Shown one piece after another: positions 21,464 to 38,058 of a stretch of 64,000 nt of DNA. How positions within the stretch are numbered: the stretch's first letter is position 1; each line of letters opens with the position of its first letter. Below the pieces are notes generated by a model. That model made no database searches. It worked only from the letters and a program-made list of their open reading frames with translations, and was not told the DNA's origin. A program made the position numbers and the translations under genes. The DNA is from Streptomyces dengpaensis (GTDB taxonomy: Bacteria; Actinomycetota; Actinomycetes; Streptomycetales; Streptomycetaceae): contig NZ_CP026652.1 of NCBI RefSeq assembly GCF_002946835.1, forward strand, positions 6,572,001-6,636,000, given 5' to 3'.

Positions 21464-21507
21464 CCCGTCCGGCGTTTGACGAAGAGCGCGGAGCGCGACA
21501 CGGGGGT

Positions 21508-21526
21508 CTGGGGGCGGAGCCCCCAG
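21508..21526 (+). terminator. small intergenic hairpin of a Streptomyces dispersed type
   Basis: CTGGGGGC-GGA-GCCCCCAG (8-bp stem) within a G-rich 3' tail after the methyltransferase. I recognise this GGGGGTCTGGGGGCGGAGCC context as common downstream of Streptomyces genes; it may act as terminator or dispersed repeat. Confidence 0.6.
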
Positions 21527-21647
21527 GTACGGGACGGGAAGGGGCGGAGGGGGCGAAAACAATGGCGGGGCCACGCCGATGAGTTCCGCACACCCACGTG
21601 GTCTACCTCTGTGAAAGCAACAGCGACCGCTGACTCAGGAGACCCCC

Positions 21648-23653: not shown

Positions 23654-24616
23654 ATGGGCCTGTATCCGGAGATCGAACCGTACGACCACGGAATGCTCGA
23701 TGTCGGGGTCGGCAACCGCGTGTACTGGGAGGTCTGCGGGAATCCGAAGGGAAAGCCCGCCGTCATGCTGCACGGCGGCCCCGGCTCGGGGTGCGGCGCG
23801 GGCTTCCGCCGTTACTTCGACCCGGCGGCGTACCGCATCGTCCTGCTCGACCAGCGCGGCTGCGGACGCTCCACACCGCGCGCGAGCGCGTACGGGACGG
23901 ACATGAGCGTCAATACGACGGCCCATCTGATCCGGGATCTGGAGCTGCTGCGCGGCCACTTGGGCATCGGCCGGTGGCTGGTGTGGGGAGTGTCATGGGG
24001 TTCGGCGCTGGGGCTGCGGTACGCGCAGACGCATCCGGACGCCGTGTCCGAGCTGGTGCTGACAGGCGTTACCACCGGATCGAATGCCGAAGTGTCCATG
24101 CTGACCAGGGGACTTGGGCGGATCTTCCCCGAGGCCTTCGAGCGGTTCCTTGCCGAGCTGCCCGAGGACGAGCGCGACGGGAACCCCGCGGCCGCGTACA
24201 ACCGGCTGCTCGAGTCGCCCGACCCGGAGGTGCGGGCACGGGCGGCGCGCGCCTGGACCGACTGGGAGACCGCGATCATTCCCGCGCCGCCGCGGTCGGT
24301 GGAGCGCTACGAGGACCCGGCCTTCCGCATGGGCTTCGCCCGCACGGTCACGCACTACTGGGGCAACGACCACTTCCTGGGGGAAGGGAACGACGAGGGT
24401 GTCGTCCTGCGGGACGTGCCTCTCCTCAAGGGCATCCCCGGCACGCTGGTCCAGGGCAGCCTCGACCTCGGGAATCTGCTGGGCATCGTCTGGCGCCTCC
24501 ATCACGCCTGGCCCGGCAGCGAGTTGGCCGTCGTCGACGACGCGGGCCACAACGCGGGGGCGCCGGGCATGGTGGACGTACTGGTGGCGGCCACCGACAA
24601 GTACGCGACCCGCTAG
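23654..24616 (+). CDS. pip: prolyl aminopeptidase
   Basis: A 320-aa alpha/beta-hydrolase. The oxyanion motif is LHGGPGSGCG, the nucleophile elbow is GVSWGSALGLRYA, DQRGCGRSTPRAS follows strand 4, and a late acid and His occur in GSLDLGNLLG and DAGHNAG. It removes N-terminal proline from peptides in the cytoplasm. It starts 18 nt after the glycosylase stop with TTAGCCT upstream as a possible -10, so it may be leaderless. One oddity: the acid position reads LDLGN where DxxxP/R is more usual. Confidence 0.9.
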   Translation: MGLYPEIEPYDHGMLDVGVGNRVYWEVCGNPKGKPAVMLHGGPGSGCGAGFRRYFDPAAYRIVLLDQRGCGRSTPRASAYGTDMSVNTTAHLIRDLELLRGHLGIGRWLVWGVSWGSALGLRYAQTHPDAVSELVLTGVTTGSNAEVSMLTRGLGRIFPEAFERFLAELPEDERDGNPAAAYNRLLESPDPEVRARAARAWTDWETAIIPAPPRSVERYEDPAFRMGFARTVTHYWGNDHFLGEGNDEGVVLRDVPLLKGIPGTLVQGSLDLGNLLGIVWRLHHAWPGSELAVVDDAGHNAGAPGMVDVLVAATDKYATR

Positions 24617-24646
24617 GCGAGTTGCTCGGGGGTCTCGTCGCCTTCG

Positions 24647-24815
24647 CCCCTCGGCGCCCTGGCCTTCGCCATCGCCACCATGGGCGTCAACATCGTCGCC
24701 AACTTCGTCTCCCCGGCGTACGACCTCGCCAACGTCTGGCCGCAGAAGATCACCTTCAAGGTCGGCGGCATGATCAGCACGGTCGCCGCACTGGTCGTGA
24801 CCCCTGGAACCTCGC
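24647..24815 (+). pseudogene. NCS1-type nucleobase permease fragment
   Basis: About 55 codons (AIATMGVNIVANFVSPAYDL, VWPQKITFKVGGMISTVAAL) match the helix 8-10 region of NCS1 nucleobase:cation symporters (allantoin/uracil permease type). The rest of the roughly 480-aa protein is absent. Near 24803 a one-base loss breaks the frame: ACCCCTGGAACC would read TPWNL with one more C. It abuts a nucleotidyltransferase fragment. Confidence 0.7.
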
Positions 24816-25270
24816 CGCTTCCGCGTGGAGCCCCTCCTCTTCCACCTCGCCGGCATCCCGAGCTACCTCGTCGTCGCCGAACTCGCCATCAACCAGGTCC
24901 TACGGGGTGACCTGCCTCGCCCCAAGACCTACCCGGAGAAACTCCGCCTGGCAGCCTGCGAACGCTGGCACGGCGCTGCCCGCGCGACCCTCGCGTACGC
25001 GAAGGCCAACCACGCGCCGGCCGGTCGCCTCACGGAGGTGGCGGGAGCCATCGCCACGGCGCCATGCAGATGGGGCACGCGGTGCTGGCGGCGCGGGGGG
25101 AGTGGGTCACGAACGAGAAGCGGTTGCTGGAGCGCGCGGAACTGCGAACCATTGACGACGTCATCGAGTCCCTGTCCACGGGATCATCCCCAGACCAACT
25201 GTCCCAAGCGCTCACGGCGGCTCAGACGCTATTCGAGTCACGGGGACCGGCTCAGGCCAGGGGTCTTTGA
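24813..25270 (+). pseudogene. nucleotidyltransferase C-terminal fragment, frameshifted
   Basis: The first part (VEPLLFHLAGIPSYLVVAEL, RPKTYPEKLRLAACERWHG, HAPAGRLTEVAGAIATA) and the second part in a different frame (MQMGHAVLAARGEWVTNEKR, LLERAELRTIDDVIESL) together resemble the C-terminal domain of an actinobacterial nucleotidyltransferase-domain protein. The frame breaks near 25060. The catalytic N-terminal domain (GS..D motif) is missing. Confidence 0.65.
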
Positions 25271-25294
25271 ACGAAAACGAACGGAGATCAAAGC

Positions 25295-25690
25295 GTGCGG
25301 GTGCTCATCTCCCCGTCGTACGGACATCCAGAGACGCGACGCCACTGGGCGGACACCGTCGACCGCCAGGTGGACTTCACGGTGCCGCGCCACGACAGGC
25401 TGCTCGCGGCCGACCAGCGCGCTCAACCTCCGACCCACGGCCACGTACGGCAGGCTCTGGCGCAGCTCCTCGACTACGCACCGCACAGTCCCGTACCCGC
25501 CCAATGCCTTGCGGCGCTGTTCCCCGAGCCGCCGGAACGCGAGGACATAGAACTCTTGCATCGCTACGGGATCGACTCCATACACCGGGAGCGCTCAAAC
25601 AGCTTCCGGCGACTGCCCGCACCGAGCGAAGGGCGCGCGCTCATGCGCGGCGTGTGGACCGGACGGGGAGACGCGAGCCGAACCGTGTGA
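25295..25690 (+). pseudogene. short ORF, probable internally deleted remnant
   Basis: A 131-codon frame starting MRVLISPSYGHPETRRHWAD, which looks like the N-terminus of a larger protein, then after a low-complexity joint HVRQALAQLLDYAPHSPVP and PPEREDIELLHRYGIDSIHR, which looks like a C-terminus. I cannot name the parent family. The two ends without a middle, and the decayed neighbours, suggest an in-frame deletion; it could still be a genuine small gene. Confidence 0.4.
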
Positions 25691-25771
25691 CGTCCGTCCG
25701 GCCATCGGATCGGGTGGGGCATCCGAATAATCCTTCGAGCGAGTGCGGTTGGCGCTGCTAACGTCGCTCGC

Positions 25772-26503
25772 GTGGCGAAACTCAATCAGATCATCGCAGT
25801 GGAGAAGGGCGTCAAGTCCAAGTCTCATCAGGACCTGACGGCCGCTCATCATGGGCTGCAGAAGCCCGCGTTGCTGGCTGGTATCTCGCGGACGTATCAG
25901 CCCAAGGACGAGGAGGGTGAGCAGTTGCCGCCCGAGTCGACTCGGGTGCAGGTGCAGGCTGAGGATGTGTTGCGGGAGACGGCGCGGACGTTGACGCGGC
26001 TGTTTGATGTGACTGCCACCAAGGACTGGGCCAACTGCACGGCCCGCGCGGATGTGAAAGTGGACGGGCGGGTGCTCGTCGCTGATGTGCCGGTGTCGTA
26101 TCTGCTGTTTCTTGAGAAGCAGCTCACCGATCTCAACACCTTTGTGCGGAAGTTGCCCGTGCTCGATGCGTCGGAGTCGTGGGTTCAGGATCCGTCCACC
26201 GACGCCTGGAAGACCGAGCCCGTACGGACGCTGCGTACGAAGAAGGTGCCCCGGAATCATGTGAAGGCCGAGGCCACCGACAAGCATCCGGCTCAGGTCG
26301 AGGTGTACTACGAGGACGTTCCGGTGGGGTACTGGACGACCGTGAAGTTCTCCGGGGCCCTGCCCGCGCGGCGCGTCAATGAACTTCTCGACCGTGTCGA
26401 GAAGGTGCAGCAGGCCGTCAAGTTCGCGCGGGAAGAAGCCAACGGCGTGGACGTCGTCGACCAGCATGTGGGAGATGCTGTTTTCGGCTACCTGTTCGGG
26501 TAG
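25772..26503 (+). CDS. conserved uncharacterised protein (DUF7873-like)
   Basis: A 243-aa protein starting MAKLNQIIAVEKGVKSKS (GTG start). It is hydrophilic, with no membrane segment, and contains ESTRVQVQAEDVLRETARTL, NCTARADVKVDGRVLVADV and RTKKVPRNHVKAEATDKHP. I recall near-identical proteins across Streptomyces, possibly named DUF7873, with no assigned function. Codons are less G/C-biased than its neighbours (many GTG, TTG, CGG and GAT), hinting at a different origin. The N-terminal Lys cluster and the downstream tRNA-like sequence make RNA contact conceivable, which is only inference. Confidence 0.7.
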   Translation: MAKLNQIIAVEKGVKSKSHQDLTAAHHGLQKPALLAGISRTYQPKDEEGEQLPPESTRVQVQAEDVLRETARTLTRLFDVTATKDWANCTARADVKVDGRVLVADVPVSYLLFLEKQLTDLNTFVRKLPVLDASESWVQDPSTDAWKTEPVRTLRTKKVPRNHVKAEATDKHPAQVEVYYEDVPVGYWTTVKFSGALPARRVNELLDRVEKVQQAVKFAREEANGVDVVDQHVGDAVFGYLFG

Positions 26504-26526
26504 GTCCCCAGGTAGCCTCTGGAACT

Positions 26527-26554
26527 CCCCGGCCACCACGCAACACGGCCGGGG
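26527..26554 (+). terminator. hairpin after the DUF7873-like gene
   Basis: CCCCGGCC (26527-26534) pairs with GGCCGGGG (26547-26554) around a 12-nt loop, 23 nt after the stop. Confidence 0.65.
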
Positions 26555-26655
26555 TGCGCGAGGAGCGCAAGCTGAAGCTGAAGCTTGTCGTGACGGAGCG
26601 GCCAGGACTCAGAACCAGCCGCTTTCAATCTCAGACTCTTGCTCCAGACTCAGTA

Positions 26656-26730
26656 TTCGCCGCCGATCGCCGGATCGACCGGGCCCAGGCCCCGGTGCGT
26701 CGAAATGCTGGTTCAAGTCCAGCCCGCGCA
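26656..26730 (+). other. tRNA-like sequence, degenerate
   Basis: From 5' to 3' there is a possible D-stem CGAT/ATCG (26664-26667, 26674-26677), a perfect 5-bp stem with 7-nt loop (26679-26695) with CAG at the anticodon position, an 11-nt variable region, and a perfect T-arm GCTGG-TTCAAGT-CCAGC (26707-26723). The 3' acceptor strand CCGCGCA finds no proper partner upstream and U33 is C. It therefore looks like a decayed or mimic tRNA, resembling tRNA-Leu most. The remaining 26555-27117 gap holds a short repeat and otherwise nothing recognisable. Confidence 0.35.
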
Positions 26731-26903
26731 GCTCGATGCGTGGTGGTCCAAAGGCAGGACGCGGCGACATAACGACTGACCTGGGTTCTCAAGCGTGCCG
26801 GCGTGTGCAGTGGGTGGCATCACAGGGTCCGGGGGCCGGCTACGCCCTCGGGCCCGCTCCGCGTTCAGAATTAACCAGGGCTCCGGTTGAGTAAGCAGGG
26901 CTT

Positions 26904-26974
26904 CGATTGCGGTCAGAGTCATCACGGGCCCGATTGAGGTCAGAGCCATCACGGTCCCGGTTGCGGTCATAAAG
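26904..26974. repeat. 27-bp tandem repeat, 2.6 copies
   Basis: Units begin at 26904, 26931 and 26958 (consensus CGATTGCGGTCAGAGTCATC), with a few mismatches. They lie in non-coding DNA upstream of the FUSC remnant. Confidence 0.75.
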
Positions 26975-27117
26975 AACACCGCATTCCCGGCACGTGTCAC
27001 ATCGCGGAAATCTCCGCGTTGCCTTCTTTCCAGCAACGCGATCTACCCTGGGTACGACAAGAGCCCGGCCGACGTCGCCCGAAGGCATCCCGCCCGCCCT
27101 CGCCCGACAGGAGCCCC

Positions 27118-27960
27118 GTGCCACTCCCCAGTGTCGCCCTACCGCCCTGGCTCGCCCACGCCCTGCGAGCGCGGCGCGAGCCCGTGCCGTGGAACGCGGT
27201 CCTGCGGGGAGCGCTGGCCGCCGGGCCGCTGCTGCTCGCGGCCGTGCTGGCCGGGCGGCCCTCCCTCGGAGTCGTCGCCGCCATCGGGGCCATGCTCGCC
27301 GGGATCAATGACCGGCCCGGGAGCCGGCGGACGGCCGTGAAGCGGCTCGGGGTGCCCGCGCTCGCCGGGGCCGGAGGGCTGCTCGTCGGGTCGTACGCCG
27401 GACAGCACATCGGTGCTGTCGTGCTCACTCTCCTCCTCACCGGACTCGGGCTCGTCGCCGGAGCCGTCAGTGCCGTCGGGCCCGTCGCGAGCGGAGCGGG
27501 TACGCATCTGCTCGTCGGCGCCGCCATCGGGGCCGGAATGCCGTTCCCCGAGCCCGGGTGGCAGCGCGCGGCCTTCTTTCTCGCCGGGGCCGGGTGGCTG
27601 CTCGCGCTGCGGCTCGCTCTGCCGACGTCCCGGGTCGCCACCGGTGACTACCGGTTCGACGGAGAGCGGGCTGCCGTCGGTGCCGTGTACGAGGCGATCG
27701 CCGCGTTGCTCGACGCGGCGGGCGGACCCGACGCGACCGCGCGGCGCGTCGCGCTGACCGCCGCCCTCGATCACGCGCAGGACGCGCTCGCCGGGCCCCG
27801 GCTGCGGCGGTACGCCAGTTCCGCGGCCGAGCGGCGGCTGCACGCGCAGTACGCCGCCGCGTTGCCGCTCGCCGAGGCGGCGACCGCGCTGGCCTGGGCC
27901 GGCGAGGCCGTGCCCGCGCGGACCGCGGAGGGGCCGCGGCGGCTCCCCGCCGCTGTCCGT
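27118..27960 (+). pseudogene. FUSC-family membrane transporter, 3'-truncated
   Basis: From GTG 27118 (AGGAG upstream) about 275 codons match the N-terminal half of an FUSC/aromatic-acid-exporter protein: GALAAGPLLLAAVLAGRPSL, LGVVAAIGAMLAGINDRPGS, GAAIGAGMPFPEPGWQRAAF, then a helical domain (ERRLHAQYAAALPLAEAATA). The family is normally 600-700 aa with a second membrane bundle. Here homology stops near 27950, and the frame runs on antisense through the next gene, whose stop codon is at 27964. A deletion has joined the two. Confidence 0.78.
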
Positions 27961-27963
27961 CCG

Positions 27964-28917
27964 TTACGGCTGCACCCGTACCCACACCGGCGCATGGTCC
28001 GACCCCTCCGCCCCGCGCCGCTCGCCCGGGTCCGCACCCACCGACGGCAGGAGCGGCTGCTCCGTGCCGGGCAGTCCGGTGCCCGCGGCGGTCACACGGT
28101 GGACCAGGCGATGGCTGACCAGGATGTGGTCGATCAGTTCGTGGCGCCCCGAGTTGATGCGGGAGAAGCGCTGGTCGGCCGGGATGAGCGGGGCCACGTT
28201 CCACAGGCGCGTCGCGTCGCCCGAGTCGGGATTGTCGTACCCCGGCGTGCCGATCTCGGAGCCGGGCGGGCCGAGCAGGATCTGGGTGGTCGCGGCCCGC
28301 ACCTCGTCGTTGAGGTCGCCGAGCACCGCCACGTCGCGGGTACGACCCTCACCGGCCAGGAGGTCGTCGGCCAGCGCGCGCAGCGCCGTCGCCTCGGCGG
28401 CCCGCCGGTACAGGGCGTACGCGCCGTAGCGGGCCCGCTCGCCCTCGTCGCGCGGTTGGAAGCGCCCGCCGGGGTAGGACAGCAGCTTCGACTTGAGGTG
28501 GCAGACCGCCACCTTGAGCGTCAGGGCGCGGGTGGCTATCTCCACCGCCAGGAAGCCGCGGCCCGCGCGTGACACGGTGGCACCGGTGTCGTCGGCCTGG
28601 ACGGGGCGCAGCAGTTCGTGGAAGGCATGGGTATCGGCGAGCACCTGCGGGACGACGCGGCTGAGGAAGCCGACCCTGATCCCGCGGTCGTCCGGGTGAG
28701 CGGAGAGCGTGACCTGCCAGTCACCGTCCAGCATTCCGGCCAGGTCCGCGAGCGCGTCCGGGTCCCCGACCTCCTGCACGCCCAGCAGTGTCGGGTCGAG
28801 TTCGGTGATGACGGCGGCCAGGGCGGCGAGCTTCGTCTCGTACGCGGCCTTGTCCTTCGGCCCGAAGGGGCCGCCGGGCCGGTACAGGTTCTCCAGGTTC
28901 CAGGTGCCGAGCAGCAT
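27964..28917 (-). CDS. endonuclease/exonuclease/phosphatase family protein
   Basis: A 317-aa enzyme of the DNase I-like EEP superfamily. Motifs are LGTWNLENLYRP (metal Asn), LGVQEVGDPDAL (metal Glu), HLKSKLLSYPGG, VLGDLNDE (catalytic Asp/Asn), IDHILVS and GSDHAPVW (terminal His). Substrate could be nucleic acid or a phosphoester. ATG 28917 has GGAAGGAG upstream. Its 3' end directly abuts the truncated FUSC gene. Confidence 0.88.
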   Translation of the reverse strand: MLLGTWNLENLYRPGGPFGPKDKAAYETKLAALAAVITELDPTLLGVQEVGDPDALADLAGMLDGDWQVTLSAHPDDRGIRVGFLSRVVPQVLADTHAFHELLRPVQADDTGATVSRAGRGFLAVEIATRALTLKVAVCHLKSKLLSYPGGRFQPRDEGERARYGAYALYRRAAEATALRALADDLLAGEGRTRDVAVLGDLNDEVRAATTQILLGPPGSEIGTPGYDNPDSGDATRLWNVAPLIPADQRFSRINSGRHELIDHILVSHRLVHRVTAAGTGLPGTEQPLLPSVGADPGERRGAEGSDHAPVWVRVQP

Positions 28918-29083
28918 GCCGGCTCCTTCCAGAAGGCGCCCGATGCGCACTGAGCAGGGTGAGTTGGGCTGTCGCGTACTGCCGTGACGCCAGGGTGCCC
29001 CCGGCAGCGGTCCTGCGACAGGGCTGGGACCGGATGCGCGATTCACATCCTCCTGCGGTACGACACCGCCGTACCGTGACGCC

Positions 29084-29691
29084 ATGACGCAGTCTCCCGC
29101 TGATCTCATCATCACCGGATGCACGGCCCTCGTACACGACGAGCAGGAGCGGATCGCGTTCGTCGAGGACGCCACGATCGTCGTACGGGGAGGGGTCATC
29201 GAGTCGGTCACCAGGGACGGGGGCCGCGCTCAGGACCGGGCGGTCACCAGGGACGGGGACAATTCGGGCCAGGACGCCGTCGAACGCATCGACGCCCGCG
29301 GTCAGCTGGCGATGCCCGGCCTGATCAACTGCCACACCCACTCACCGATGGTCGCCCTGCGCGGCATCGCCGAGGACCTGCCCGCCGAGGAATGGTTCAA
29401 CGACTTCATCTGGCCCATCGAGTCCAACCTCACGGAGAAGGACGTGGAGTTGGGCGCGCGGCTCGCCTGCGCCGAGATGATCCGCGGTGGGGTCACCTGC
29501 TTCGCCGACCACTATTTCTCGATGGACACCGTCGCCGCCGTGACGGCCGAGAGCGGGCTGGACGGATCCTGATGCGCGACCGCGAGCTTCTCCCCCTCGA
29601 TCTCCCGGCCACCGTACGAGAGTTGGATCAGCGGCTGCCCGCACTCGTCGACCGCAGCCACGGCAAGCGGATCCAGGAGTACGACACGTGA
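29084..29691 (+). pseudogene. amidohydrolase with large internal deletion
   Basis: The N-terminal 160 codons (ADLIITGCTALVHDEQERIA, LAMPGLINCHTHSPMVALRG, EMIRGGVTCFADHYFS) are those of a TrzN/SAH-deaminase-type amidohydrolase, including the metal-binding HTH. Near 29565 the sequence jumps, out of frame, to what reads as the protein's C-terminus: ILMRDRELLPLDLPATVREL then RSHGKRIQEYDT, stop 29691. Roughly 250-300 residues with the remaining metal ligands are missing. Confidence 0.8.
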
Positions 29692-29816
29692 TCCACTCTG
29701 GCCGGGCTGATGACGCGCTGAAAATATCGAGGCGATAAAAAATCTCTGCGATCCACCGATGAGTTCTGCTCCTCCCCTCGGTCCACCCCCAGAAGGCAAT
29801 TCTGTAGGAGGAGCCC

Positions 29817-30503
29817 ATGACGCTTCCGCAGATCGTTTCGCGCGAGGAGTGGCGCGCGGCGCGCGAGGCACTGCTGGCAAAGGAGAAGGCCGCCACGCGC
29901 GCGCGTGACGCGCTCAATGCCGAGCGGCGCGGGCTGCCGATGGTCGAGATCGACAAGGAGTACCTGTTCGAGGGCGGCGACGGGAAGGCGACGCTGCTCG
30001 ACCTCTTCCGGGGACGGCACCAACTCGTCGTCTACCACTTTATGTTCGCGCCCGAGTGGGACGCGGGCTGCCGCAGCTGCTCGGCGTTCCTCGACCAGAT
30101 CGGGCACCTCGCTCATCTGTGGGCCCGCAGCACGGAGTTCGCCGCCGTGTCCCGGGCGCCGTACACGAAGATCCTGCCGTTCAAGGCCCGCATGGGCTGG
30201 ACGGTGCCCTGGTACTCGTCGTACGACAACGACTTCAGCTACGACTTCGAGGCGTCCTTCGCCGGCGACGAGCCCTACGAGCGCCCCGGACTGAGCTGTT
30301 TCCTGCGGGACCGCGACCGTGTCTGCCACACGTACTCCACCTACGAGCGCGGCCTCGACGGAATCGGCTCGACAACCAGCCTCCTCGACCTCACCGCGCT
30401 GGGACGGCAGGAGGAGTGGGAGGAGCCCAAGGGGCGCGCGTCCGCGCTGGGGGCGCCCGCGGGCAGCGAGCGCATCCGGTACCACGACGAGTACGAGGAC
30501 TGA
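29817..30503 (+). CDS. DUF899 thioredoxin-fold protein
   Basis: A 228-aa protein of DUF899 (thioredoxin-like): MTLPQIVSREEWRAAREALL, LFRGRHQLVVYHFMFAPEW, CRSCSAFLDQIGHLAHL, ILPFKARMGWTVPWYSSYDN, and LSCFLRDRDRVCHTYSTYER. The CxxC occupies the thioredoxin-like position. Function not established. AGGAGG occurs 8 nt before the ATG. Confidence 0.9.
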   Translation: MTLPQIVSREEWRAAREALLAKEKAATRARDALNAERRGLPMVEIDKEYLFEGGDGKATLLDLFRGRHQLVVYHFMFAPEWDAGCRSCSAFLDQIGHLAHLWARSTEFAAVSRAPYTKILPFKARMGWTVPWYSSYDNDFSYDFEASFAGDEPYERPGLSCFLRDRDRVCHTYSTYERGLDGIGSTTSLLDLTALGRQEEWEEPKGRASALGAPAGSERIRYHDEYED

Positions 30504-30579
30504 GAGTTCCTTTACGGGGACTGCACGTTCCCTTGGGATGGGGCGTTCCCTTACGAGGGCTGAGAGTTCCCTCACCTCG
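30502..30579. repeat. degenerate repeats after the DUF899 gene
   Basis: Three or four imperfect units sharing GTTCCCTTACG and TGAGAGTTCC lie directly downstream of the stop codon. They are too diverged for a clear unit length. Confidence 0.4.
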
Positions 30580-30698
30580 GGTTCGCGGCCAAGTGTCGGG
30601 TACGTCTCAGTACCGTCACTTCGCGAGCCGTTCACCCCCTGGAAGGCGTTTAACTCTGTGAGAGCAGCACGAGAGGCTGCGCTACATGGAGGTGCAGG

Positions 30699-30872
30699 GT
30701 GAACGGGCGAACGGTGCTGGAGCGCTTCCCCGCCGGTGGGCCGCGCGGGTCCTGGCCCGCGGAGGAGTTCGCACAGGCGCGCCGCCAGGAGGGCGAGGCC
30801 GCCGAGGTCGTCATGGATCTGACCACGGACGCGTTCTTGGTGATCGTACGAGGTGTCGACGCCGTCGAGTGA
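30699..30872 (+). CDS. 57-aa hypothetical protein
   Basis: GTG 30699 is preceded by GGAGG at a 6-nt distance and follows a plausible -10 (TTTAACTCT at 30648). The product is soluble and acidic (MNGRTVLERFPAGGPRGSWP then EGEAAEVVMDLTTDAFLVIV). No motif is recognised. Good ribosome site and Streptomyces-like codon use support a real small gene. Confidence 0.6.
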   Translation: MNGRTVLERFPAGGPRGSWPAEEFAQARRQEGEAAEVVMDLTTDAFLVIVRGVDAVE

Positions 30873-31005
30873 GCCGAGTTGCCGACGTGCAGACCGGCCG
30901 ACGTGCCCATGCCGCGAGCCATGGCTTCCCGAGCCGGTCGGCGGTCCGCGGATCAGTTGGCCTCGTCGGACGGGTGGGCCTGGCCGGCGTCGTCGGACTG
31001 GTGGC

Positions 31006-31260
31006 CTAGCCGGCCTCCCCGGTCGGGACCTTGGACGTGAACTGCTCCGCCTGCAGTGAGTACAGCTCCGCGTAGATGCCCCCCGAGGCCAGGAGTTCGT
31101 CCGGAGTCCCGGACTCCACGAGGCGGCCCTGGTCGAGGACGTGCACGAGATCGGCGTGGCGTACGGACGCCAGCCGGTGCGTGATGAGGATGACCGTCTG
31201 GCCGGTACCCGCCAGTGCCCTGATCTTCTCGAAGACCTCCAGCTCGGCCCGGGCGTCCAC
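31006..31260 (-). pseudogene. ABC half-transporter, C-terminal remnant
   Basis: Reading leftward, (L)DARAELEVFEKIRALAGTG, TVILITHRLASVRHADLVHV (switch His) and LDQGRLVESGTPDELLASGG are the end of an ABC-transporter nucleotide-binding domain. Everything before the D-loop is missing; homology starts abruptly at 31260. Its probable N-terminal part lies at 31990-32368. Confidence 0.85.
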
Positions 31261-31392
31261 CTTTATCTATAGCTGTCAGGTATCTGTCCGCGTCGGTTGG
31301 CACGGCTGCCCCCAGGCACGTTAGGCACGACCCCGGTCAGCAGGTAGAAAATTGGTTGAGCCTCGGGTGATCATGTGGCAGGCTCGCCAGCC

Positions 31393-31476
31393 TTGACCGG
31401 GATCACCAAGTTGCACGACGACGGGGTGGACATCGATGCATCCCTGGTGGCGCGTCTGCTCTCCACGCGGCGATGA
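31393..31476 (+). pseudogene. possible aminoglycoside phosphotransferase N-terminal scrap
   Basis: Twenty-seven codons, LTGITKLHDDGVDIDASLVA then RLLS, resemble the first residues of APH-family proteins and then stop at TGA 31474. No kinase domain follows. Confidence 0.35.
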
Positions 31477-31512
31477 CATCCGGGGTTTCGGTGAACAGCA
31501 CGTGGAGGGCTG

Positions 31513-31941
31513 ATGGCATCGATCAAGCAGTTCCAAGTCACCTTCGACTGCGCAGAACCTGAGCGCCTCGCTCGTTTCTGGTGCGAGGTGTTGGGGTACG
31601 TCGTACCGCCGCCACCGGAGGGGTTTGCCACTTGGGACGATTTCAAGCGCTCGCAGCCACCTGAGCAGCGGGATTCATGGTTCGCCTGCAGTGATCCCTC
31701 AGGTGTGGGCCCGCGACTGTACTTCCAGCGCGTCCCCGAAGGGAAGGCCGCCAAGAACCGGCTGCATCTTGACGTGCGGGTCGGCACCGGACTCGTAGGT
31801 AAAGAGCGCCTCGCCGCACTTGAGGCCGAATGCGCACGACTGGTCCCGCTCGGCGCGGTACACGTGCGAACGCTGTATGACGGCAATGATTCGTGCATCC
31901 CGATGCAGGACATCGAGGGCAACGAGTTTTGTATCGACTGA
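31513..31941 (+). CDS. VOC family protein
   Basis: A 142-aa two-module vicinal-oxygen-chelate protein: QFQVTFDCAEPERLARFWC, LGYVVPPPPEGFATWDDF, GPRLYFQRVPEGKAAKNRLH, DIEGNEFCID. This layout (glyoxalase-like type 6) is found in small dioxygenase/resistance-like proteins; substrate unknown. It looks intact and its codons are less biased (GCT, CGT, TGT, TTG). It sits inside the segment that replaces the middle of an ABC-transporter gene, so it was probably acquired or rearranged there. Confidence 0.85.
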   Translation: MASIKQFQVTFDCAEPERLARFWCEVLGYVVPPPPEGFATWDDFKRSQPPEQRDSWFACSDPSGVGPRLYFQRVPEGKAAKNRLHLDVRVGTGLVGKERLAALEAECARLVPLGAVHVRTLYDGNDSCIPMQDIEGNEFCID

Positions 31942-31989
31942 GGGGCCGCGAACGCGTCCTCGTTCTGTCCCCATGGGCCAGGACGAAGA

Positions 31990-32368
31990 ACCGCCCCCGA
32001 CCTCAGGGGAGCAGCGCGGGGTGCAGCACCGTCAGGACGCCGGCCGCCGCGCAGCCGGCCCCCGACCGGGCCGCTCGTCATCAGCTGCCCGAGGACGCTG
32101 TTGACCGCCAGCAGGCTGACTGCCTGGGCTCCGCCGCGGGCCACCTCGGCGGCCAGCACGACACGGGCGGCGGGCGGTCCGCCTTCCAGGCCCGGCGGAA
32201 ACTGGACGCGAGCAGCGACGGCAGCCGCCTCACCATCGCGCGGAAGTTCAACTCCATGAACGTGTCGGCGTGTTGGGACCGGCCCATGTCGTAGCGGAGT
32301 TGGCCGCCGAAGAGCAGGAACTCGGAGTCGGACGGCGCCGGCCGGTCGTCGCTGTGCTTCTTTGCCAC
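31990..32368 (-). pseudogene. ABC half-transporter, N-terminal remnant
   Basis: From GTG 32368, behind GGGGGAGG, it reads EFLLFGGQLRYDMGRSQHAD, TFMELNFRAMVRRLPSLLAS, then after a one-base loss near 32182 VLAAEVARGGAQAVSLLAVN and SVLGQLMTSG. This is the N-terminal part of an ABC half-transporter; the membrane domain and most of the ATPase domain are gone. A second frameshift occurs near 32050. Confidence 0.78.
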
Positions 32369-32536
32369 CCGTGGCCTCCCCCGATATCCGACAGCGGACG
32401 AACGATGCACTCCCCAGGAATGCAGTCCTCCACCCCTGCCGGCAAAGAGTTTGCGCCGGACCGTCACACTTCGGACATCGGTGGATTGTCGGGGGTCCTA
32501 CGGCGACCCGTGGTCAGGGTCTGCACCAGGGCCTGC

Positions 32537-32992
32537 TCACGCACTGATCGGACGCGTCCAGGAGGGTGTCGCACCGGTGACCCGGCACAGGGCCAGATAG
32601 AGCGGGATCGGCGGGGTGTACGGAAGGGTGCCGGCCGGTTTGTAGATGAGCCCGGGTGCGCCGGACGCGTCGGGTGCCTCCGGTACCAACGCCCCCGTGG
32701 CGTAGTGCGCGGGTGCCGGCCACTCCAGGGCGACATCGGAGTCGGAGGGCACGATCCACCACCAGTGCGCCCTGTCGGCGTAGACGCAGCCCACGCGGGG
32801 CAGTCGCGGCAGCAGTATCGGCCCGAACCGGGCGGGCACCGACACCGCGTCACAGCCCAGCGGTACGGTCATGCCCTCGGGTACGAGGAGACGCCTCAGC
32901 GGCCCCGGCATCCGCTGGTCGCGCTTCAGGCGGACCAGCGTGTCCAGGCTCAGGACCTGCCTTCCGGGCCCCGCCGCCGACGTACCCCTCAC
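32537..32992 (-). CDS. conserved hypothetical protein coupled to an anti-sigma-like gene
   Basis: A 151-aa protein starting at a GTG that overlaps the stop of the upstream ATP-binding protein gene (GTGTGA), implying translational coupling. Sequence includes VLSLDTLVRLKRDQRMPGPL, VGCVYADRAHWWWIVPSDSD and PYTPPIPLYLALCRVTGATP. No transmembrane segment or known domain is seen. I recall similar proteins next to RsbW-like proteins in Streptomyces. Function unknown. Confidence 0.7.
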   Translation of the reverse strand: MRGTSAAGPGRQVLSLDTLVRLKRDQRMPGPLRRLLVPEGMTVPLGCDAVSVPARFGPILLPRLPRVGCVYADRAHWWWIVPSDSDVALEWPAPAHYATGALVPEAPDASGAPGLIYKPAGTLPYTPPIPLYLALCRVTGATPSWTRPISA

Positions 32993-33792
32993 ACCCTCCC
33001 CCAATCTCGGCTCCGCTCGATCGGGGGGACCCCCATGCTCCCCGTTCCCCAGGACGCTTCCGTCCCGGCGCCCCGGCCGTCGGCCGGTGGCTTCTTCGCG
33101 CTCCAGCCCAGGTCCGAGCGGGCCGCCGTCCAGCCCTGGTCCGAACGGGCCGCCGTCCAGCCCTGGTCCGAACGGGCTGCCGTCCAGCCCTGGTCCGAAC
33201 GGGCTGCCGTCCAGCCCTGGTCCGACCGGGCTTGGGTGCCCGCGTCGGGCCCGTCGGGGGTGTGGTGCCCGTCCGGGGTGCGGTGCCGGTCCGCGGTGCG
33301 TTCTGGCTCCGCGGTGCGCTCCAGCTCCGCCCAGACCAGCAGGCCCTGCCCGGTGTCCTGGACTCCCCAGGCCCGGGACACGGCCGCGACGAGGAGCAGT
33401 CCCCTCCCGTGCTCCTCCTCGGGCCGCTGCGGCGAGGGGCAGGGCCCACCAGGGGCGCAACCCTCGTCCCGCACGGCTATCCGCACCACCTCGTCGCCGT
33501 CGTGCAGTTCGCACACGACGTGCTCGCCGGTGGTGTGCACGATCGCGTTGGTGACCAGCTCGGAGATGACGAGGGCCGCTGTGTCGCAGGTGTCCTCGCA
33601 CACAGCCCATCCGGACAGCCGGGAACGTGCCAGGCGTCTTGCCAGGGCCACGGAGCCCGGGTGTGCGGCGAGCTCGAAGCGGAACCGGCGCTCGGCGGCC
33701 GCGCCGGGGCGGGGCCCTGCGGCGGCACGGAGACCGAGCCGGTCTACGGCGGCGTCTGTTCCTAACGGCGCGGACGGAATCACGCTTGCCAC
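32989..33792 (-). CDS. RsbW/HATPase-type anti-sigma-like ATP-binding protein
   Basis: A 267-aa protein. The N-terminal half has Bergerat-fold motifs: LVISELVTNAIVHT (N box), VRIAVRDEGCAP (G1-like), and EEEHGRGLLLVAAVSRAWGV (G2). This is the RsbW-like kinase fold typical of the AbaA/WhiJ clusters of Streptomyces. The C-terminal tail is Asp/Arg/Gly-rich and contains four 9-aa repeats ARSDQGWTA. GTG 33792 is chosen over TTG 33819 on codon preference. It is divergent from the XRE gene and coupled to the 151-aa protein gene. Confidence 0.85.
   Translation of the reverse strand: MASVIPSAPLGTDAAVDRLGLRAAAGPRPGAAAERRFRFELAAHPGSVALARRLARSRLSGWAVCEDTCDTAALVISELVTNAIVHTTGEHVVCELHDGDEVVRIAVRDEGCAPGGPCPSPQRPEEEHGRGLLLVAAVSRAWGVQDTGQGLLVWAELERTAEPERTADRHRTPDGHHTPDGPDAGTQARSDQGWTAARSDQGWTAARSDQGWTAARSDQGWTAARSDLGWSAKKPPADGRGAGTEASWGTGSMGVPPIERSRDWGRV
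33107..33229. repeat. 27-bp (9-codon) repeat in the anti-sigma-like gene tail
   Basis: CCGTCCAGCCCTGGTCCGAA... recurs at 27-bp spacing four times with one partial diverged copy at each end. It is in frame and encodes ARSDQGWTA. Near-identity of units suggests active expansion or contraction. Confidence 0.9.
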
Positions 33793-33821
33793 TATCGCCC
33801 CGCCGTGAACACTTGGCAAGA

Positions 33822-33853
33822 GTCACTCTGAAAAGTGCAGAGTGCCATGTGAC
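33822..33853. promoter_or_regulatory. inverted-repeat operator candidate between divergent regulators
   Basis: CACTCTG (33824-33830) pairs with CAGAGTG (33838-33844) across AAAAGTG, flanked by an outer GTCAC/GTGAC pair (33822-33826, 33849-33853). It lies in the 202-bp divergent gap between the anti-sigma-like gene and the XRE gene, the expected place for autoregulation by the XRE-DUF5753 protein. Confidence 0.5.
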
Positions 33854-33994
33854 TTCGCGAGGGCCCGTGGCACACTGCTCGCAACAGCACGCCGAGCGGC
33901 GCCAGTTGGGAACGTCGATGAGACTCCGAACGGCGCCGCCAGGGCTGCCCGGACACGGCTGTCCCGTCCGGTCAGGACTCAGTGGAGGTAGGAC

Positions 33995-34855
33995 GTGAGC
34001 GAACCGCGGTCCGCGCCGACGGTCGGTCAGGTCGTCCTCGGGCGGCGCCTGCTGGACCTGCGGGAACGCGCGGGTCTCAGGCGTGAGGAGGCTGCGCGCA
34101 TCCTGCGCGTCGCGCCCGCCACGGTCCGTCGTATGGAGATGGCCGAGGTCTCCCTCAAAATCCCGTACCTGCAGCTCTTGCTGAAGTCGTACGGCGTCAG
34201 CGACGAGGAGGCCGAGGCCTTCGTCCAACTGGCCGAGGAGGCCAACAAGCCCGGCTGGTGGCAGCGGTTCCACGACGTCCTGCCGGGCTGGTTCTCCATG
34301 CACGTCAGCCTGGAGGGTGCGGCCGCCCTGATCCGCTCGTACGAACCCCACTTCGTGCCGGGACTGCTGCAGACCGAGGAGTACGCGCGTGGCGTCCTGA
34401 AGGCGGGCGCCATCGCCCAGACCAGGCCCGAGGACATCGAGCGTCATGTGGCGCTGCGCATGCAGCGCCAGGAGCTGGTCACTCGTGAGGACGCACCCCG
34501 TATCTGGGCCGTGATGGACGAGACGGCCCTGCGCCGCCCCCTCGGCGGCCCCGAGGTGATGCGCGCCCAGATCGACAGACTGCTCGAAGCCGCGAAGCTG
34601 CCCAACGTGACGCTGCAGGTGATCCCGTTCTCCTCGGGTCCGCATCCCGGCACGTACGGGCCCTTCGTGCTGTTCCGCTTTGCCGTGCCGGAGCTCCCGG
34701 ACATGGTCTACAGCGAGTACCTGACCGGCGCGGTCTACCTGGACGCGCGCTCAGAGGTGGCGACACATCTCGAGGTCATGGACCGCATGGCGGCGCAAGC
34801 CGCTACAGCACATCGCACGAAGGAGATCCTGCTGGATCTCCGCAAGGAGCTGTGA
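33995..34855 (+). CDS. XRE-family regulator with DUF5753 domain (WhiJ-like)
   Basis: A 286-aa protein from GTG 33995. A helix-turn-helix occupies residues 9-70 (LGRRLLDLRERAGLRREEAA, RILRVAPATVRRMEMAEVSL). A DUF5753 domain covers about 95-275 (YEPHFVPGLLQTEEYARGVL, VMDETALRRPLGGPEVMRAQ, VTLQVIPFSSGPHPGTYGPF). WhiJ and its paralogues have this architecture and pair with DUF397 proteins to control development and antibiotic synthesis. The DUF397 gene follows with the stop and ATG directly adjacent. Confidence 0.93.
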   Translation: MSEPRSAPTVGQVVLGRRLLDLRERAGLRREEAARILRVAPATVRRMEMAEVSLKIPYLQLLLKSYGVSDEEAEAFVQLAEEANKPGWWQRFHDVLPGWFSMHVSLEGAAALIRSYEPHFVPGLLQTEEYARGVLKAGAIAQTRPEDIERHVALRMQRQELVTREDAPRIWAVMDETALRRPLGGPEVMRAQIDRLLEAAKLPNVTLQVIPFSSGPHPGTYGPFVLFRFAVPELPDMVYSEYLTGAVYLDARSEVATHLEVMDRMAAQAATAHRTKEILLDLRKEL

Positions 34856-35119
34856 ATGGAACGCATCAAGCCGCGGATACGCCCCGTGCGCATCTACAAC
34901 GGAATGCCCGCCCGCGACCTGGGCAACGAGGGCTGGCACAAGCCGTGGAGCGGCGGAAACGGCGGCAACTGCCTGGAGGCGATGAAGCTCGCCGACGGGC
35001 GCATCGCGGTCCGCCAGTCGGCGGACCCGGACGGCCCCGCCCTGATCTACACACCCGGCGAGATAACCGCGTTCATCCAGGGCGCGAAGGCGGGGGAGGC
35101 GGACTTCCTTCTCTCCTGA
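34856..35119 (+). CDS. DUF397 small regulator
   Basis: An 87-aa DUF397 protein: YNGMPARDLGNEGWHKPWSG, GGNCLEAMKLADGRIAVRQS, PALIYTPGEITAFIQGAKAG, DFLLS. Its ATG immediately follows the TGA of the XRE gene, so translation is coupled. In WhiJ-type pairs the DUF397 protein modulates the DNA-binding partner. The N-terminal basic extension (MERIKPRIRPVRI) is longer than in most relatives. Confidence 0.92.
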   Translation: MERIKPRIRPVRIYNGMPARDLGNEGWHKPWSGGNGGNCLEAMKLADGRIAVRQSADPDGPALIYTPGEITAFIQGAKAGEADFLLS

Positions 35120-35204
35120 CCCACTTGAGTCTGTGTTTCTTCTTGAACTCTGTGAACACCCCTAATGTGACGCTGAATTGAAAACATTGGACACGTACCG
35201 CGCT

Positions 35205-35281
35205 GGGCGCGCCGGCGCCCGACAGCCCTCCGGCGAGGGCGCGCCTCCCCACCACAACGCCCCTCGGTGACCGACGGGGCG
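35205..35281. terminator. hairpins between convergent DUF397 and MocR genes
   Basis: A 6-bp stem GGGCGC/GCGCCC (35205-35220) and a 10-bp stem CGCCCC.TCGG/CCGACGGGGCG with one bulge (35259-35281). They sit in the 35120-35358 gap, whose first 75 bp are unusually A/T-rich for the window. Confidence 0.4.
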
Positions 35282-35358
35282 ATGTGTGCCGTCGGCCGGG
35301 TGAGCGGCGTTGCGTGCCGTCAGCCGGCCGGGTTGCAGCGTCAGCCCGGCCGGAGCCG

Positions 35359-36369
35359 TCACCCGGGCGGCAGCACCCCGCACAACGCGTCGAGCGCCGC
35401 CCCATACGCATGCTCCGCGGGCGTCGCGTACCCCACCACCAGCCCGTCCGGCGCGGCCATCACCGCCTCCGGATGCCGGAACTCGCCGTCGTAGTCGTCC
35501 TCCAGAATCACCCCTCCACGCGCGCGTGCCCAGTCGATCACGGCGGCGCGCCGCTCGGCACGCAGCGGACCGCCGGTCGGGAACTGATGTGCTGGCGTGA
35601 GCAATACGGCCCGTTCCCGGCCCAACTCGCCCACCTGCGCGCCGTCTTCGTCCAGCGGCAGTGGCACGGTCCGTACGGACCCGGCGGTCAGCAGCTCGCG
35701 GTGGAAGCCGAGGCCGTACGACTCGACGGCCAGCGGGCCTCGCAGGACCCGCGGGAAGAGCAGCCGCAGGGCATGCGCGAAGCCGGAGCAGATCACGATC
35801 CGTCCGGGCTCCGTGCGGACGCCACGCGCGCGTGCCAGGTACTCGGCGAGCGCCTCGCGCAGTTCGGTCCGCCCCGCCGGATCGCCTGGCCCGAAGGCCT
35901 CGTTGGGCGCCTGCTGGAGGGCGCGGCGGTACGACGCAAGCCAGTCCGCGCGCGGGAACGACGACGCGTCCGGCGTGCCCTGCCGCAGATCGTGCCGGGG
36001 TCCACGCGCGCGTAGAGGTGCCTTTTTGGGTACGCGCGCGGGGGCGCCCGGCGGTGCGGCGCGGTCCGCGACCCGGGTCCCGGAGCGCGGCGGTGCGGCG
36101 CGGTCCGCGACCCGGGTCCCGGAGCCCTGCCGGGCGGTCAGCCAGCCCTCGGCGACGAGCTCGGCATACGCGTCGGCCACCGTGTTGCGCGCGACGCCCA
36201 GGTCGGCGGCGAGCGAGCGGTACGGCGGCAGCCGGGTCCCCGGCGCGAGCCTGCCGCTGCGTACGGCCTCACGCAGCGCCCGCATGAGCGCGGCCCGCCG
36301 CCCGCCCGAGCCCGACAGCTCCAGGTGCAGATCGGCGCCGATCCGCTCCGCAGAATTGACCCAGGATTC
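35359..36369 (-). pseudogene. MocR/GntR-type regulator, 5' loss and internal deletion
   Basis: A winged-helix GntR domain (LPPYRSLAADLGVARNTVAD, AYAELVAEGWLTARQGSGTR) is joined to a fold-type I aminotransferase domain up to AVIDWARARGGVILEDDYDG. At 35475/35476 it jumps in frame to PEAVMAAPDGLVVGYATPAE, the usual C-terminus. Some 130-170 residues including the PLP-binding lysine are missing. The N-terminal part ESWVNSAERIGADLHLELSG is present, but the codon before it is not a start. It would be translated at best from ATG 36285. Confidence 0.82.
36051..36125. repeat. 39-bp (13-codon) duplication in the MocR linker
   Basis: GCGGTGCGGCGCGGTCCGCG... at 36051 is repeated at 36090 without mismatch over 36 bp. 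It is in frame and encodes SGTRVADRAAPP twice in the interdomain linker. Confidence 0.9.
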
Positions 36370-36380
36370 CGCCTGACGCG

Positions 36381-36530
36381 GGCGTGCCCGACGACGTCTA
36401 CGCGGAGGCCGCCGCCCACTTCGACGACCAGGAACTCGCCCACGTCCTGGCCCTGATCCTCACGATCAACACCTGGAACCGGGTGGCGCTGTCCACGGCG
36501 AAGGTGGCGGGCACGGACGAGCGCGGCTGA
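36381..36530 (+). pseudogene. carboxymuconolactone decarboxylase-family C-terminal fragment
   Basis: Forty-nine codons: VPDDVYAEAAAHFDDQELAH, VLALILTINTWNRVALSTAK, VAGTDERG then stop. This is the C-terminal end of an AhpD/CMD-type protein, a common divergent partner of MocR regulators. The N-terminal half (with the Cys-x-x-Cys) and the intergenic promoter region are deleted, so the fragment directly abuts the MocR remnant. Confidence 0.72.
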
Positions 36531-36570: not shown

Positions 36571-38058
36571 CTACACCCTCATCGGCCGGTCGTACGGCCC
36601 TATCGGCGCCGGAAGCCGCGACGCCCCCGTCAGGGCGCGATCGACGGCGGCCGCCACCGCGCGGCCCTCGGCGATGGCCCAGACGATGAGGGACTGGCCG
36701 CGGGCCGCGTCCCCGGCGGCGTACACCCCGGGGACGTTGGTCGCGAAGTCCGCGTCGCGGGCGATCGTGCCGCGCGGGTCGAGAGCCAGCCCGAGCTGGT
36801 CGATCAGGCCGTCATGGCGGTCGGGGCCCGAGAAGCCGAGGGCGAGCAGCACGAGGTCGGCCGGGAGGGTCCGCCCGGAGCCGGGGACCGGGCGGCGCCG
36901 CTCGTCGACCTCGACGAGGTGCAGGGAACGCACCCGCCCGCCCGCGTCCCCGGTGAAGTGGAGCGTGGACGCCGCGAAGAGCCGCGCGTCCGCGTCCGCG
37001 GCGGGCGCCGTCCCGAGCACACCTGCCTCCTCGTGCGCGGCCGAGAGCCGGTAGATCTTCGGGTACGTCGGCCACGGCTCGGCCTCCTCGTCGCGCTCCG
37101 ACTCGGGCTGCGGATAGATGTCCAGCTGCGTCACGGACGCCGCGCCCTCACGTACGGCCGTCCCCAGACAGTCGGCACCGGTGTCCCCGCCGCCCACGAT
37201 CACCACGTGCTTCCCGGCCGCGGACAACGGCGAGACGTCCAGATCCCCTTCGCACACCCGGTCGGCCAGCGGCAGATACTCCATCGCCTGATGGATGCCG
37301 CTCAACTCCCGTCCGGGTACGTCCAGTTCCCGCCATGCGGTGGCGCCGACGGCCAGGATCACCGCGTCGTAGCGCTCCTTCAGCTCGGCGGCGTCGATGT
37401 CCGTGCCGATCCCCGTCGACGTACGGAACTTGGTTCCCTCCGCCAGCATTTGCTCGAGCCGCCGGTCCAGGTGCCGCTTCTCCATCTTGAACGCGGGGAT
37501 CCCGTAGCGCAGCAGCCCGCCGATCCGGTCGGCTCTCTCGTACACCGCGATGGTGTGTCCGGCCCGCGTCAACTGCTGTGCCGCGGCGAGGCCGGTGGGC
37601 CCCGACCCGATCACCGCGACGGTCCGTCCGGAGAGCCGGTCCGGCGGGCGCGGTGGCGTGAAACCGTCCTCCCAGGCGCGGTCGGCGATGGCCACCTCGA
37701 CGTTCTTGATCGTGACCGCCGGCTGGTTGATCGCCAGCACACAGCCCGCCTCGCACGGCGCGGGGCACAACCGCCCGGTGAACTCGGGGAAGTTGTTCGT
37801 GGCATGCAGACGGTCGCTCGCCTGTCGCCAGTCGTCCCGCGAGACGAGGTCATTCCATTCGGGGATCAGATTGCCGAGCGGACAGGCGTCGTGGCAGAAG
37901 GGGATTCCGCAGTCCATGCAGCGGTCGGCCTGCCGGTTGATGATCGGCAGCAGCGCTCCGGGGACGTACACCTCGTTCCAGTCCCGCACGCGTTCCTCGA
38001 CGGGCCGACGCGGGTACTCCTCGCGCGGTGTGGTCATGAATCCTTTGGGATCGGCCAT
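36571..38058 (-). CDS. gltD: glutamate synthase small-subunit-like oxidoreductase
   Basis: A 495-aa protein. It has an N-terminal [4Fe-4S] motif (CMDCGIPFCHDACPLGNLIP plus PAPCEAGC), an FAD-binding GSGPTGLAAAQQL, an NAD(P)H-binding GGGDTGADCLGTA, and a C-terminal FAD site GVYAAGDAARGQSLIVWAI. Full-length GltD passes electrons from NADPH to the large subunit GltB to make glutamate. No gltB lies on either side, so the partner is elsewhere or this stand-alone paralogue serves another acceptor. A partial copy of its first codons lies upstream. Confidence 0.92.
   Translation of the reverse strand: MADPKGFMTTPREEYPRRPVEERVRDWNEVYVPGALLPIINRQADRCMDCGIPFCHDACPLGNLIPEWNDLVSRDDWRQASDRLHATNNFPEFTGRLCPAPCEAGCVLAINQPAVTIKNVEVAIADRAWEDGFTPPRPPDRLSGRTVAVIGSGPTGLAAAQQLTRAGHTIAVYERADRIGGLLRYGIPAFKMEKRHLDRRLEQMLAEGTKFRTSTGIGTDIDAAELKERYDAVILAVGATAWRELDVPGRELSGIHQAMEYLPLADRVCEGDLDVSPLSAAGKHVVIVGGGDTGADCLGTAVREGAASVTQLDIYPQPESERDEEAEPWPTYPKIYRLSAAHEEAGVLGTAPAADADARLFAASTLHFTGDAGGRVRSLHLVEVDERRRPVPGSGRTLPADLVLLALGFSGPDRHDGLIDQLGLALDPRGTIARDADFATNVPGVYAAGDAARGQSLIVWAIAEGRAVAAAVDRALTGASRLPAPIGPYDRPMRV

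Follow-up and report, generated by a model that had tools for sequence, protein, structure and literature searches.

Among streptomycetes, genome erosion has reportedly occurred in Streptomyces philanthi, whose genome is said to hold many small-mutation pseudogenes; the Streptomyces lineage examined here is likewise losing genes, although S. philanthi is an insect symbiont. Here we describe a 12-kb island of damaged accessory genes, positions 24617..36530 of a 64,000-nucleotide window (G000:C1:6572001-6636000, the whole stretch of DNA analyzed), in which separate deletions, unshared by close relatives, have removed parts of seven genes. The closest described counterparts are I-SceI scars in S. 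ambofaciens; the study that describes them reports deletions of 191-23,591 bp, microhomology of 1-6 nt in 50% of scars, added nucleotides in 40% and inserted genomic pieces (PMC5869714). The island resembles these non-homologous end joining scars in deletion sizes, in the little or no homology at most joins and, it appears, in DNA from other positions at some of them; it differs in that the S. ambofaciens scars were lab-induced, whereas here we infer them from a natural genome (PMC5869714). In Salmonella, a pseudogene survey counts 346 of 378 pseudogenes with one inactivating mutation, mostly deletions of at most 20% of the open reading frame (ORF) or point mutations (Kuo and Ochman 2010, PMC2916853). 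As with the young pseudogenes in that survey, the broken genes of the island look young and little decayed and a deletion bias is evident, whereas large deletions dominate here (PMC2916853).

The genome that contains the window, G000, is assembled into 3 contigs that total 8,710,171 bases (completeness 100%, contamination 0.88%). It was compared with a sister, S. albiflavescens CGMCC 4.7111, the closest named relative found (93% protein identity for the island endonuclease gene), and with an outgroup of the same genus, G007 (genome ~10 Mb). Across the 330 kb compared around the island, nucleotide identity to G000 was 89.8% for S. albiflavescens and 83.9% for G007, and identity to G007 was nearly equal for G000 and S. 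albiflavescens (83.85 and 83.58%). Genome totals, as listed, were 8.71 Mb for G000 and 10.9 Mb for S. albiflavescens.

Protein comparison with S. albiflavescens or G007 revealed that all seven genes named as broken in the original prediction are fragments in G000 and longer in relatives. The NCS1 permease retained residues 338-389 of 512, with both ends gone, and the nucleotidyltransferase retained residues 109-250 of 261, with the N-terminus lost and a frameshift near 25061-25076. The FUSC transporter was reduced to residues 9-284 of 683 by loss of its C-terminus, and the CMD protein to residues 149-197 of 198 by loss of its N-terminus; the CMD deletion also removed the MocR start codon. The predicted pattern of both termini kept and the middle gone held for three of the seven, namely the amidohydrolase (residues 2-151 and 414-454 of 454), the MocR regulator (residues 1-299 and 429-469 of 469, with a 432-bp internal deletion in frame) and the ABC half-transporter (residues 705-780 of 788, a 38-nt piece and an N-terminal part), and not for the other four. 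Small indels were present in the remnants of NCS1, the nucleotidyltransferase and the ABC N-terminus. Intact genes do stand between the damaged ones, as had been proposed (DUF7873, endonuclease, DUF899, XRE regulator and DUF397). Losses extended beyond the predicted set: an FCD/GntR regulator and a cytochrome P450 gene are wholly gone from the island, and G000 lacks a methyltransferase that G007 has complete and S. albiflavescens has in truncated form. The features, with strand in brackets, are as follows.

23654..24616 (+): alpha/beta hydrolase, intact, left flank, presumably iminopeptidase-like; PF00561; stop TAG 24614-24616; relatives align to 24607-24615
24617..24648 (no strand): junction A, 32 nt; FCD/GntR regulator and NCS1 N-terminal part lost
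24649..24813 (+): NCS1 permease remnant, shorter than in relatives by one C close to its end; PF02133 in the G007 homologue
24814..25237 (+): nucleotidyltransferase C-terminal remnant, fused to the NCS1 remnant; PF01909 in the G007 homologue
25772..26503 (+): DUF7873 gene, intact; PF25283, E 2e-121
27133..27960 (+): FUSC N-terminal remnant; PF13515 in the G007 homologue; junction C at 27959-27965
27963..28917 (-): endonuclease/exonuclease/phosphatase gene, intact; PF03372 in the G007 homologue; its stop codon bounds the FUSC deletion
29084..29560 (+): amidohydrolase N-terminal remnant; PF01979 in the G007 homologue
29561..29691 (+): amidohydrolase C-terminal remnant; junction D at 29560, 778 bp lost
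29692..29737 (no strand): site of the lost P450 gene, ~1.18 kb gone; PF00067 in S. albiflavescens
29817..30503 (+): DUF899 gene, intact; PF05988
31006..31260 (-): ABC half-transporter C-terminal remnant; PF00005 in the S. albiflavescens homologue
31461..31983 (+): relocated segment in the ABC gap, with an intact glyoxalase-like gene at 31513-31941; PF18029
32007..32044 (-): ABC remnant, 38 nt; 88-95% to relatives
32045..32450 (-): ABC N-terminal remnant with frameshift, outer limit approximate; 275-bp deletion at its edge, 7-bp repeat
33995..34855 (+): XRE-type regulator, intact; 89-91% to relatives; family named by reading
34856..35119 (+): DUF397 gene, intact; PF04149
35120..35355 (no strand): site of the lost methyltransferase gene; PF04672
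35359..36375 (-): MocR regulator with 432-bp in-frame internal deletion, without start codon; 8-bp repeat at 35477-35484
36374..36530 (+): CMD C-terminal remnant; PF02627 in the G007 homologue
36571..38058 (-): oxidoreductase, intact, right flank, which we take to be glutamate synthase small-subunit-like; PF07992, PF14691

Alignment breaks recurred at 24649, 24813-24816, 27959, 29560, 31257-31259, 32045, 35477-35488 and 36370-36375 against 13 genomes and 5 named loci, with not every breakpoint seen in every relative, and S. albiflavescens carried extra DNA at the breakpoints (for example 1359, 777, 1181, 420 and 429 bp). A 251-bp probe across the amidohydrolase junction found matches in 171 of 392 genomes of the genus, G000 included; among the matches listed, G000 alone spans the junction (query position 121) and the others stop or start near it. 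The furthest reach past this junction from the left among those matches was in G188 (10 nt), where the second piece lies separately. We also examined 80 named loci, located through the endonuclease gene, which itself served as a control (intact in 79; the other controls, XRE and DUF899, in 69 and 62). Intact copies were found for FUSC in 65 loci, the amidohydrolase in 70, ABC in 58, the methyltransferase in 43, the nucleotidyltransferase in 41, P450 in 27, MocR in 22, FCD in 21, NCS1 in 11 and CMD in 1, the NCS1 and CMD counts being lowered by N-terminal differences. Loci with no match to a lost or broken gene ranged from 6 (FUSC) to 63 (CMD), with true absence and early locus end pooled. Partial copies not cut by the locus end were few (FUSC 5, amidohydrolase 3, ABC 3, nucleotidyltransferase 3, P450 1); a number of them either match over the full length with a stop inside the alignment or derive from L077, one locus with many broken genes. 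The island deletions and most of their junctions could be read directly; G007 polarised six of the deletions, and intact copies in relatives lend support to others.

Homology was measured with one script at 17 clean junctions under a strict filler cost, and the null was a set of 300 blunt deletions simulated with 10% divergence. This analysis revealed 1-2 bp of in-register homology at 13/17 junctions and 7-10 bp at 4/17, two of them in the island (ABC and MocR), compared with a mean of 1.72 bp and 1/300 at 7 bp or more in the simulations. No overall shift in homology was detected by a Mann-Whitney test over all junctions (P = 0.34), so that a claim for repeats rests on the tail and not on the mean. 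The original prediction had expected microhomology of 4-10 bp; homology of at least 4 bp was present at only 4/17 junctions, and the distribution makes short homology a minority route. All 17 junctions were fitted without filler by the script. Eight of the 17 were polarised by G007, MocR among them, and the ABC junction is backed by intact copies in relatives. Within the island, junction A contains 32 nt that match nothing significantly in the S. albiflavescens sequence deleted there, junction B (24813), which joins NCS1 to the nucleotidyltransferase, has zero shared bases, and junction D (29560), in the amidohydrolase, shares 1 bp. Junction C (27959-27965), in FUSC, has approximately five extra bases (TCCGT) as judged by eye, and at junction E the right flank is partly duplicated. 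Junction G (ABC, 275 bp) lies on CGCCGCG (7 bp), and junction H (MocR) on CGGAACTC (8 bp), a repeat that S. albiflavescens, G024 and G007 carry at both ends. At junction I (CMD), CGCC occurs on either side, and one additional T was read by eye. In two cases the stop codon of an intact neighbouring gene marks the limit of a deletion (24616; 27963-27965).

The middle of the ABC gene is replaced by a segment of at least 31461-31983 that carries the intact glyoxalase-like gene. This segment has no other full match in G000 and is located elsewhere in relatives (S. albiflavescens C1:1002168, 95%; G007 C1:5411643; G024 C33, 83%; G032), and S. albicerus has a relative of it within the corresponding 20-kb locus (L103). 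In G000 the sequences that flank the S. albiflavescens copy lie apart, and for this reason a segment that was moved, one that was copied and one that came from outside remain alternatives.

To place the island in context, three G000 regions (6.42-6.82, 4.00-4.16 and 2.00-2.14 Mb; compared spans of 330, 93 and 124 kb, ~546 kb in total) were aligned to S. albiflavescens and G007. Under a common filter, deletions of at least 150 bp numbered 29 in the G000 lineage and 1 in that of S. albiflavescens (20:1, 4:0 and 5:0 by region); the strict filter dropped one gap (4300 vs 4459 bp), leaving 20 and not 21 in the island region. The longer G007 branch had 10 deletions, including possible gains that predate the split of the other two. 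Unpolarised length differences comprised 42 segments present only in S. albiflavescens and 25 present only in G000. No 12-kb stretch of the region holds more polarised deletions than the island, which has six of the 20 (P about 0.01 if deletions were placed uniformly), and six more occur over ~15 kb located ~110-135 kb beyond it. Since G000 and S. albiflavescens diverged, this chromosome part has lost DNA more broadly, and the island is one dense spot in that loss.

Gene content was also compared. Among S. albiflavescens genes intact in G007, 38/236 were lost in G000 (29 absent, 9 truncated), and the reverse comparison gave 8/216 lost in S. albiflavescens (3 absent, 5 truncated). In the 330-kb region of the island the losses were 33/177 in G000 vs 2/162 in S. 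albiflavescens, and this confirmed a clear gene-count excess in the island's own region only. About eleven of the 29 absent genes fall in a single 21-kb deletion. That deletion lies at G000:C1 ~6718063-6718090 relative to S. albiflavescens; 89% of the segment aligned in G007, and about eleven outgroup-conserved genes are gone with it. Frameshift or stop calls were alike (7 in G000, 6 in S. albiflavescens), and several may be start-site differences. The original prediction thus describes a genuine feature and reads it largely well. Its proposal that the lineage is shedding accessory functions by short-homology deletions is partly supported: the deletion excess (29 vs 1) agrees with it, within the regional limits of the gene counts, and short homology was not the rule.

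The ratio of nonsynonymous to synonymous substitution (dN/dS) relative to S. albiflavescens was 0.07-0.34 in 8 remnant segments and 0.04-0.16 in 7 intact ones. Coding constraint is still visible in the remnants, and the losses therefore look fairly recent. In the remnants the G-B and A-B dN values were similar, which suggests that most divergence predates inactivation. The 100% completeness indicates that core genes were spared.

Taken together, these data are probably best explained by a run of accessory genes cut by about ten separate lineage-specific deletions, of ~0.3-2.7 kb in the island, mainly through Ku/LigD end joining. Breaks in dispensable genes would have had their ends trimmed back before rejoining, mostly by this non-homologous pathway, and a smaller share of the deletions would have arisen at 7-10-bp direct repeats. 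Deletions that reached a needed neighbour would have been discarded by selection, which may be why two of them end where an intact gene has its stop codon. Ku and the LigD polymerase domain were present in 7/7 genomes checked, G000 included. The homology-free or short joins expected of Ku/LigD scars were found, the 13 junctions at 1-2 bp being null-like, and the ABC segment and the 32 nt at junction A are candidates for added or captured DNA, with no filler placed by the script at its 17 junctions. A repair defect that would explain the asymmetry with S. albiflavescens was looked for and not found: Ku, the LigD polymerase domain and NucS were all present in 7/7 genomes, though one Ku locus of G000 is broken. 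The Ku gene at G000:C1:8211604-8212033 is split into two open frames, one with an internal TGA, and another Ku gene is located on C2.

Several observations weigh against this interpretation. The core sample had 4/34 gene losses in G000 vs 2/29 in the sister, with no clear excess, and the left sample had 1/25 vs 4/25, with the direction reversed. Five of the eight remnant segments were above 0.16, the top dN/dS value among intact segments, and constraint has therefore relaxed somewhat; the nine remnant segments that are stop-free are so partly by construction, open stretches having been chosen. G007 left nine of the 17 junctions unpolarised; among these are the two with 10 bp, which lie outside the island and could be S. 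albiflavescens gains. Homology was gauged throughout on a relative 10% diverged. Extra nucleotides at the joins in FUSC and CMD were seen by eye, and the script placed none. In this respect the junctions depart from the S. ambofaciens scars, and so do the four at 7-10-bp repeats, compared with 1-6 nt there (PMC5869714); repeats of this length exceed the published range and suggest a second route for those events.

If instead slippage or annealing at direct repeats of 4-10 bp had produced most deletions, the MocR and ABC junctions and the two unpolarised 10-bp junctions outside the island would be the best examples, joined by the CGCC at the CMD junction with its extra T; junctions at 7 bp or more also exceed simulation (4/17 vs 1/300). 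We nevertheless regard this as improbable for the set as a whole, given the 13 junctions at 1-2 bp and the 0-1 bp at the NCS1/nucleotidyltransferase, FUSC and amidohydrolase joins. Misassembly, in which the assembler dropped segments from genes that are in fact intact, would also predict remnants as little decayed as these. The sequence itself appears to argue against it and makes it very unlikely: the joins are blunt and without repeats, a relocated gene sits in one gap, small indels mark the NCS1, nucleotidyltransferase and ABC remnants, two deletions stop at neighbours' stop codons, and completeness is 100% although 38 of the 236 sampled outgroup-conserved genes are gone or cut.

A single catastrophe that shattered the region and rejoined it with losses would account for the clustering of the deletions and the relocation of one piece; however, the retained native pieces keep their order and orientation, a second deletion adjoins the relocated segment within ABC, and similar deletions were found elsewhere, so that we give this explanation hardly any weight. 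Comparably slight is the chance of adjacent deletions mediated by an insertion sequence (IS) that was lost later, for which an IS110-like copy ~40 kb from the island could speak; no IS end was seen at the junctions by eye, no IS search having been made. As the original prediction stated, no transposase was found among the island ORFs called or scanned, in the course of which no search aimed at transposases was made. The IS110-like element (family by reading) occupies G000:C1:6556148-6557625 and is absent at that site in S. albiflavescens; among ten G000-only segments inspected, it was the nearest IS, 14-16 kb before the window.

Other features of the window were also recorded. DUF7873, intact in the window, lacks its N-terminus in S. 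albiflavescens, where it lies beside the FUSC gene (L059); decay of this locus is therefore not restricted to the window lineage. Positions 25170-25760, between the nucleotidyltransferase remnant and DUF7873, gave short or weak matches at most in 99 other genomes. A GC-rich dispersed repeat of ~100 nt at 21462-21560 had 17 matches in 400 kb of G000, 11 in 397 kb of S. albiflavescens and 7 in 400 kb of G007, and occurs in about 30 places in the S. albiflavescens genome among the matches listed. A 45-nt repeat at 32993-33037 occurs in ~26 further places in G000 among the matches listed, at 80-97% identity.

The process behind the island is an ordinary one, accessory genes being lost by deletion; its record is unusually easy to read, and the surrounding chromosome region has a conspicuous surplus of deletions. 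Among the titles listed in literature searches, none concerned this locus or a lineage-wide burst of end-joining deletions in natural Streptomyces, which is weak evidence of absence. We consider it possible, if doubtful, that G000 is a Streptomyces with an intact core in the midst of a recent chromosome-wide burst of perhaps hundreds of end-joining deletions; genes would then be cut before they acquire point mutations, and break repair, not decay of the symbiosis type, would set the pace of shrinkage. Break repair in this genus is known from induced cuts, and the island and its surroundings provide deletion scars from nature that can be read as a set, many of them polarised by a sister and an outgroup. 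This set makes it testable whether end joining drives natural gene loss, and how near to needed genes selection tolerates deletions.

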